From Sporosarcina pasteurii (GTDB lineage Bacteria; Bacillota; Bacilli; Bacillales_A; Planococcaceae): a stretch of 64,000 nucleotides of DNA. Location of the stretch: contig NZ_CP160452.1 in the NCBI RefSeq assembly GCF_041295575.1, forward strand, positions 372,001 through 436,000, in the 5' to 3' direction. A model generated the notes under the pieces. It did not search any database. It was not told the origin of the DNA and saw nothing but the letters and a program-made list of their open reading frames with translations. Positions 41,390 through 42,997 of this stretch are shown piece by piece (the stretch's first letter is position 1; each line of letters opens with the position of its first letter). The translations under genes were made by a program, and so were the position numbers.

Positions 41390-42997
41390 ATGACAAAGTA
41401 TATTTTTGTAACTGGTGGCGTTGTATCATCGCTCGGAAAAGGAATTACAGCGGCATCACTCGGACGTTTATTGAAAAATCGTGGTTTACAAGTAACGATT
41501 CAAAAGTTTGACCCTTATATTAACGTCGATCCTGGAACAATGAGTCCTTATCAACATGGTGAAGTTTTCGTAACAGAAGACGGTGCGGAAACAGACTTAG
41601 ATGTGGGCCATTACGAACGCTTTATCGATATTAAATTAAATAAATACTCAAACGTAACGATGGGTAGAGTATATTCTGCCGTTTTGAAAAAAGAACGTCG
41701 CGGCGATTATAATGGAGCAACGGTACAAGTTATTCCTCATATTACAAACGAAATAAAAGAACGCATTATTGCTTCTGGGAAAGAGACGAATGCCGATGTA
41801 GTCATTACTGAAATCGGAGGAAGTGTTGGAGATATTGAATCTTTACCGATTTTAGAAGCGATTCGTCAAATGAAAACAGATTATGATAAACACGATGTCA
41901 TGTATGTTCACTGTACACTCATCCCATATATGAAAGCTGCGGGCGAATTAAAAACAAAACCAACGCAACATAGCGTAAAAGAATTACGTGGACTTGGTAT
42001 TCAACCAGACATTATCGTCGTACGTTCGGAACAATCTGTGCCACAAGAAATGAAAGAAAAAATTGCGCTATTTTGTAGTGTAAGAGCAGAAGAAGTGATT
42101 GAAGCGGTTGATGCTGACACACTATACAAAATTCCGCTCTTGCTTAAAGAACAAAGGATGGACGAAATTGTTGTCGATCATCTTCGACTAGATGTAGAAG
42201 AAGCGGATGTAACAGAGTTGGAAAATCTTGCGAATCTTGTAGGGGCGTTGAAGCATACGGTGGAAATTGGCCTTGTTGGGAAATACGTGGAACTTCCAGA
42301 TGCTTATATTTCAGCTGTTGAAGCACTTTCTCATGCAGGATATCGACATGATACTGAAGTCAAAGTGAGATGGATTGATTCGGAAGAGGTCACTGCTGAA
42401 AATGCGGCTGAATTATTAAAAGGCCTTGGCGGCATTGTTGTACCGGGTGGATTTGGTGATCGTGGGATTGAAGGGAAGATTGAAGCAATCACGTACGCGC
42501 GTGAAAATAATATTCCTTTCTTCGGTATCTCACTTGGTATGCAATTGGCGGCAGTTGAATATGCACGTAACGTATTAGGATTAACGAAAGCTCATTCAAC
42601 GGAGTTTGATGAACAAACACCGCATGCCATTATCGACTTATCACTTGCGCAAAAAGACATCGATGGGAATGGTGTACCGATGCGTCTTGGTCTGTTCCCT
42701 TGTAAAGTGCAAGATGGGACAAGAGCTTATGAAGCGTACGGCGAACCATTAATTTATGAGCGTCACCGTCATCGTTATGAGTTTAATAATGAATACCGCG
42801 AGCAATTGGAAAAAGCGGGCATGGTATTTTCGGGAATGAGCCCAGATGGTTTGTTGGTCGAAATGATTGAACTGAAAGATCATCCATTTTTCATGGGTTG
42901 TCAATTCCATCCAGAATTTGCTTCAAGACCAACTCGCCCACAAGCATTGTTTAGTGAGTTCGTAAAAACCTCTTTAGAAAATAGTTTAAATCAATAA
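41390..42997 (+). CDS. pyrG: CTP synthase with Ser in place of the glutaminase Cys
   Basis: A 535-residue CTP synthase (UTP + ATP + NH3 to CTP). The synthase domain (1-265) has [22 protein letters not shown] and the [11 protein letters not shown] motif. The glutaminase domain (about 290-535) keeps the oxyanion loop VPGGFGDRG and the catalytic His-Glu in QFHPEF, but the nucleophile elbow reads [11 protein letters not shown]: Ser381 (codon TCA, 42530-42532) where homologues have Cys (GICLGMQ). Cys-to-Ser at this site in the family abolishes or greatly reduces glutamine use while ammonia-driven synthesis can continue. The ATG at 41390 follows GGAGG. Everything else looks like an active essential gene under its normal attenuator. 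Confidence 0.95.

Follow-up and report, generated by a model that had tools for sequence, protein, structure and literature searches.

A CTP synthase of Sporosarcina pasteurii without the catalytic cysteine, and a probable clade-wide change from glutamine to free ammonia as nitrogen donor

The stretch of DNA analysed here, 64,000 nucleotides from the genome of Sporosarcina pasteurii (positions 372,001 to 436,000 of contig NZ_CP160452.1; hereafter the window), encodes a CTP synthase (PyrG) that is very probably an ammonia-only enzyme, one member of a set of enzymes changed from glutamine to free NH3 throughout the clade. The nitrogen donor for nucleotides and cobalamin is best read, from comparison of the sequences, as having been switched from glutamine to free NH3 across the clade. 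A previous reading of the window from its letters alone (the sequence-only reading) had singled out PyrG as a lone oddity. This did not hold: the loss is genus-wide and also hit CarA, PurQ, GuaA and CobQ, with glutamine synthetase gone as well from many of the species.

PyrG of the window and residue 381 in its relatives

The features of the window and of its genome are listed in Table 1. The open reading frame of pyrG starts at 41303, an in-frame upstream extension; homology is found only from 41390. The genome is available as one contig of 3,298,318 bases (99.99% complete), in which a search with the CTP_synth_N profile gave a single match. A second complete pyrG, which would have spoken against the sequence-only reading, was not found by this search.

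Table 1. Coordinates of the features of the window and of two further genes of its genome.
Feature	Position	Strand	Evidence
pyrG, CTP synthase, 535 aa	41390..42997	+	NF003792, 844.7 bits vs cut-off 308
PyrG synthase (amidoligase) domain, residues 3-267, intact	41396..42190	+	PF06418 (CTP_synth_N), 427 bits
PyrG class I glutaminase (GATase) domain, residues 302-526, predicted inactive	42293..42967	+	PF00117; faster evolution in genus
PyrG codon 381 TCA (Ser), catalytic-Cys position	42530..42532	+	reading of sequence, alignment
PyrG residues 428-430 of GTP 'wing' motif, G-V-P	42671..42679	+	alignment; role from passages of PMC9138612
PyrG His507-Pro-Glu509, rest of triad, conserved	42908..42916	+	alignment
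cobQ, cobyric acid synthase, 277 aa, without C-terminal glutaminase domain	24369..25202	+	NF001989 positions 3-235 of 480, 311 bits
CarA of pyr operon, Gly for catalytic Cys, Tyr for triad His	G000:C1:2159705-2160805 (window's genome), L188	-	
PurQ, Gly for catalytic Cys, Leu for triad His	G000:C1:2847897-2848568 (window's genome), L187	-	

Ser381 lies in the motif GISLGMQ and aligned with the Cys of GICLG in two structurally solved CTP synthases, confirming the Ser that had been reported at this position. The statement that the His and Glu of the triad, the oxyanion loop and the synthase domain are intact was likewise borne out; His507 and Glu509 are found in the motif QFHPEF, and the PGGFG loop is present. 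Against TIGR00337, the family of glutamine-hydrolysing CTP synthases, PyrG scored 814.5 (cut-off 462.75) despite Ser381. The triad His and Glu of this family are present; the catalytic Cys is missing, and the wing motif GGTxRLG is replaced by GVPMRLG, in which RL is kept.

Cys is absent at PyrG residue 381 in all 68 Sporosarcina genomes. In its place 33 genomes have Gly (GGN), 32 have Ser (AGY in 26, TCN in 6) and 3 have Ala (GCA). Sixty-one of the genomes were read by protein alignment, and G112, G187, G193 and G198-G201 by motif pattern; the pattern matched in 67 of the 68 genomes, with no Cys codon, and the remaining one, G057, has Ser (AGT) by alignment. Genome G026, with two PyrG pieces, one with Ser and one divergent with Gly, was counted once, as Ser. 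The stop in the PyrG of G040 is the ordinary terminal stop. The sequence-only reading had asked whether Ser is fixed in a clade: the lack of Cys extends throughout the genus, while Ser itself is not fixed. It had also considered a sequencing error unlikely, and the agreement of the 68 genomes excludes one.

A family sample of 151 genomes contained 17 of Sporosarcina and 134 others. The motif pattern gave a Cys codon in 128 of these 134, 30 of which were confirmed as PyrG by alignment; six of the 128 gave an extra match with a Ser codon, seen by pattern only. The six genomes missed by the pattern were read by protein search, which found Cys in four and Gly in both genomes of the genus g8. Outside Sporosarcina and g8, Cys is therefore present at this position in 132 of 132 sampled family genomes. 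Among 80 named PyrG loci, Cys was found in all 77 from outside Sporosarcina and in none of the three from Sporosarcina (L041, L084, L090), which were not added to the 68 genus genomes.

The non-Cys PyrG sequences of Sporosarcina and g8 were monophyletic, with a support of 0.976 for the synthase domain alone and of 0.999 for the full protein. The g8 sequences were nested inside Sporosarcina in the PyrG tree, and a small Obg tree built from seven genomes placed g8 there too. The simplest account of these sequences would be a single loss of Cys in the ancestor of Sporosarcina and g8, followed by drift among Ser, Gly and Ala; Ser and Gly are one base away from a Cys codon, and TCA and GCA can be reached through them.

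In a phylum sample of 398 genomes, which is no census, the motif pattern matched 130 genomes and did not match 268. Seventeen stretches, around non-Cys matches and two companions, were read: five held PyrG (three non-Cys, two Cys) and 12 had no PyrG match. This tally leaves out non-Cys pattern matches such as those in G234, G312 and G472 and the extra matches in genomes with a Cys match. The three verified non-Cys PyrG from outside Sporosarcina and g8 are those of G339 and G513, both of family f85, and one of the two copies in G568 (L299, L300, L307). All three have GISLGMQ with Ser, as in the window's PyrG, and belong to lineages separate from Sporosarcina. Further triad changes occur in G339 (FHPQY) and G568 (FQPEF), and the second copy of G568 has Cys.

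Evolution of the glutaminase domain and the GTP wing

The ratio of glutaminase to synthase pairwise divergence was 2.85 in Sporosarcina; the Cys-type Planococcaceae gave 1.50 and the Cys sequences taken together 1.59 (pairs with a synthase divergence below 0.02 were left out, and no group contributed more than 4000 pairs). The corresponding tree-length ratio was 4.39 in Sporosarcina (15 site bootstraps, 3.46-6.06); in two Cys groups it was 2.18 (1.54-2.62) and 2.66 (2.09-2.92), ranges that do not overlap that of Sporosarcina. Relative to the synthase domain, the glutaminase domain evolved approximately twice as fast in Sporosarcina as in the Cys enzymes. The mean divergence of the synthase domain was lower within the genus (0.11) than within the Cys Planococcaceae (0.17).

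Conserved columns were defined as those at least 98% identical in the 113 Cys PyrG sequences. In the glutaminase domain, 14 of 70 such columns were altered in at least 10% of Sporosarcina; in the synthase domain, 9 of 127. Among the 14 altered glutaminase columns are those of the GGT in the GTP wing, which all 113 aligned Cys enzymes have. The window's PyrG has GVP at this place, with Pro for the wing Thr; of the other 59 genus sequences in the alignment, 33 also have the Thr replaced. Passages of a review (PMC9138612) assign GTP activation of glutamine hydrolysis to Thr431 and Arg433 of the Lactococcus CTP synthase wing, and describe bound GTP as covering the entrance for outside NH3.

These comparisons suggest a PyrG without glutaminase activity. 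All 60 aligned genus PyrG retain His507, Glu509 and the wing Arg432, and the glutaminase domain is still there, which suggests that it has kept some role, perhaps a structural one. The nine altered synthase columns, for example 49-50 and 145, are not explained by an ammonia-only enzyme.

Columns 49-50, 82 and 145 of the synthase domain, otherwise nearly invariant, vary in the genus; the window's PyrG is ordinary at 49-50 and has Ser at 145.

Other amidotransferases and glutamine synthetase

All 46 genus copies of CarA, and both g8 copies, have Gly at the nucleophile position; the two aligned outgroup copies have Cys there. Tyr in place of the triad His is a further change, seen in the window's genome and in eight of its near relatives. 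By protein search (E up to 1e-60), CarA was not found in 22 of the 68 genus genomes and was present in 12 of 12 others. CarB was likewise not found in 18 of the 22 genomes without carA (E up to 1e-30); these 18 may be plain pyrimidine auxotrophs. In four species (G004, G037, G039, G054; L320-L323) a full-length CarB occurs without CarA, with 81-83% identity to that of the window's genome; carA is gone from between pyrC and carB, which are separated by approximately 46-57 bp. A pattern search for CarA was given up, as its matches of the form GxGLGHQF belonged to the GTPase Obg in all seven of the stretches that were read; protein search and direct reading were used instead.

PurQ is present in 64 of the 68 genus genomes (E up to 1e-30). 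Cys is replaced by Gly and His by Leu in 42 of the 44 genus copies read and in both g8 copies, and both residues are found in the four outgroup copies read. The two genus copies that keep Cys and His are those of G007 and G193.

Genomes G007 and G193 (L294, L295, L341) carry an ordinary, divergent purQ while their PyrG still has Gly. The purF of G193 is also divergent and of the ordinary type (66% identity), pointing to replacement by transfer; the ordinary purQ of both genomes, and the purF of G193, were probably reacquired in this way.

All 21 copies of PurF that were read have retained Cys. GuaA of the window's genome also keeps Cys, as does its PurF, showing that not every amidotransferase was switched. 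Two other motifs of PurF are changed: HVRY reads QVRY in 18 of the 19 genus copies read (L187 6267-7694, minus strand; L324-L342), and HNGN has become MNGN in the window's genome and in three of its near relatives.

Eleven genus copies of GuaA were read. Three, that of the window's genome included, have Cys, and eight are non-Cys or shortened: the nucleophile position is occupied by Ser in five, Ala in one and Glu in one (G039). In G039 the glutaminase part, counted up to SGGVDS, is also shorter, with 155 residues in place of 223; G042 lacks the elbow, and its glutaminase part has 147 residues.

Pfam analysis of the window's CobQ, in a slightly longer frame, gave AAA_26 and CbiA and no GATase_3; cobS directly follows the short gene. 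The ordinary cobQ gene has 1485 bases (one reference gene). Eighteen further genus stretches upstream of pyrG were surveyed, of which 14 held a complete cobQ, one held a copy cut by the end of the stretch (also short) and three held none, so that CobQ is short in 15 of 15 complete Sporosarcina copies seen, the window's included. Two outgroup stretches were searched for GuaA and two for CobQ, without a match; the normal state of both in the family was taken from models (NF001989, 480 positions), the one reference gene and general knowledge.

Glutamine synthetase (PF00120) was not found in 27 of the 68 genus genomes, the complete genome of the window among them; a few of the 27 are incomplete (G026, 75%; G023, 83%). 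A gene of the family is still present in 40 of the 68, with only a weaker-scoring one in G016, G029 and G045, and G018 has fragments only. The gene was present in 10 of 10 family genomes from nine other genera, in 14 of 14 controls and in one of the two g8 genomes. Among the seven PF00117 matches of the window's genome there was no TrpG/PabA or HisH.

Alternative explanations, the proposed ammonia route and known systems

The changed enzymes could still use glutamine indirectly, if a separate glutaminase made a pool of NH3 on which all of them drew. The window's genome does encode a stand-alone class I protein whose GICRGLQ and HPE site is intact (L005). The same genome has no glutamine synthetase gene, so that the glutamine would need to be imported, and we consider this explanation unlikely. 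Lower still is the probability that all these genes are decaying by drift because cytidine or nucleobases are easily imported and de novo synthesis has become unimportant. The 18 genomes with neither carA nor carB are what would be expected of pyrimidine auxotrophs. However, the low synthase-domain divergence in the genus alongside a relaxed glutaminase half, the full carB frame in four species without carA and the long open frames of the adjoining pur and pyr genes in the window's genome all argue against general decay.

The sequence-only reading had offered two outcomes for PyrG. A serine-type glutaminase, with Ser381 as alternative nucleophile, would agree with the conserved His507, Glu509 and PGGFG loop and with the occurrence of Ser in 32 genus genomes. 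It was rejected because in sister species of the same clade this codon encodes Gly or Ala, neither of which can be a nucleophile; the replaced wing Thr, needed for GTP activation, the faster-evolving glutaminase domain and the Gly that CarA and PurQ of the window's genome carry also stand against it, and it is the less probable even when compared with decay under salvage. A sequencing or assembly error, or a pseudogene accompanied by a second working copy, has a negligible probability: no support for it was found, the frame is intact, the complete contig holds one PyrG, and the agreement of the relatives refutes it. The other outcome, loss of glutamine hydrolysis with CTP synthesis driven by ammonia, is strongly supported by the sequence comparisons.

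In an ammonia-only PyrG, the glutaminase half, its nucleophile gone, would not be able to form the glutamyl-thioester. Ammonia from the solvent would enter the tunnel, probably by way of the vestibule, over which GTP lies in ordinary enzymes, and would aminate 4-phospho-UTP in the intact synthase domain. The single loss in the ancestor of Sporosarcina and the nested g8 was probably part of a general change to ammonia as donor. In this change the nucleophiles of CarA and PurQ would have been lost and later, in many species, that of GuaA, and CobQ would have lost its whole glutaminase domain; carA or glutamine synthetase would then have disappeared from some species. Sporosarcina cells are ureolytic and alkaliphilic, and a high level of intracellular NH3 was likely the permissive condition.

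For S. pasteurii, passages of PMC7775470 describe ammonia as mandatory, with a need for ammonia or urea, and the organism as having neither glutamine synthetase nor glutamate synthase activity. The gene losses in Sporosarcina fit this reported physiology, both in the need for ammonia and in the missing glutamine synthetase activity. On this point PMC7775470 cites the work of Wiley and Stokes (1962) and that of Morsdorf and Kaltwasser (1989). Whether Sporosarcina has largely dropped glutamine as intracellular nitrogen carrier, with purines, pyrimidines and cobalamin fed from the ammonia pool and, where glutamine synthetase is missing, possibly no free glutamine made, is an evenly balanced question. 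If this were true, even the amidation of tRNA-Gln would run on ammonia or an imported amide in the species lacking glutamine synthetase, and the requirement of S. pasteurii for ammonia and alkaline pH would gain a direct enzymatic basis.

Among the titles and abstracts listed in searches of the open-access literature, none described such a change in Sporosarcina or a natural CTP synthase without a working glutaminase, and we know of no described bacterial counterpart to a change of nitrogen donor in a whole genus. Few devices of metabolism are as conserved as the hydrolysis of glutamine within the enzyme with tunnelling of the ammonia; a genus that does without glutamine hydrolysis in several unrelated enzymes would show the conditions under which it is dispensable. 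The genus offers candidates for natural ammonia-only forms of PyrG, CarB, PurL, GuaA and CobQ. S. pasteurii is a main organism of microbial cementation, and its long-standing ammonia requirement can now be given a testable enzymatic hypothesis. The findings also carry a warning for annotation, as such proteins score high on models of glutamine-hydrolysing families.

The Sporosarcina enzyme shares the fold family, the domain order and the synthase domain with the glutamine-hydrolysing PyrG (NF003792, TIGR00337; 1s1m, 1vco), and differs in the Ser, Gly or Ala that replaces the nucleophile Cys, in the eroded GTP wing and in the relaxed glutaminase domain. The C379A variant of the E. coli CTP synthase has a disabled glutaminase. 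The glutaminase is also disabled in the G352P variant, whose synthase runs on NH4Cl alone according to passages of PMC9138612. These E. coli variants were engineered, whereas the state found in Sporosarcina is natural and fixed.

In CPS I, the carbamoyl phosphate synthetase of the urea cycle, Cys is changed to Ser at the nucleophile. CPS I is the nearest working parallel, an ammonia-only relative of glutamine-dependent synthetases (described in passages of PMC6022934), and the window's PyrG resembles it in having lost the nucleophile while the synthase part is under constraint. CPS I is, however, one mitochondrial enzyme with an added activator; in Sporosarcina the change extends to at least five enzyme families, in some of them through loss of the glutaminase gene or domain.
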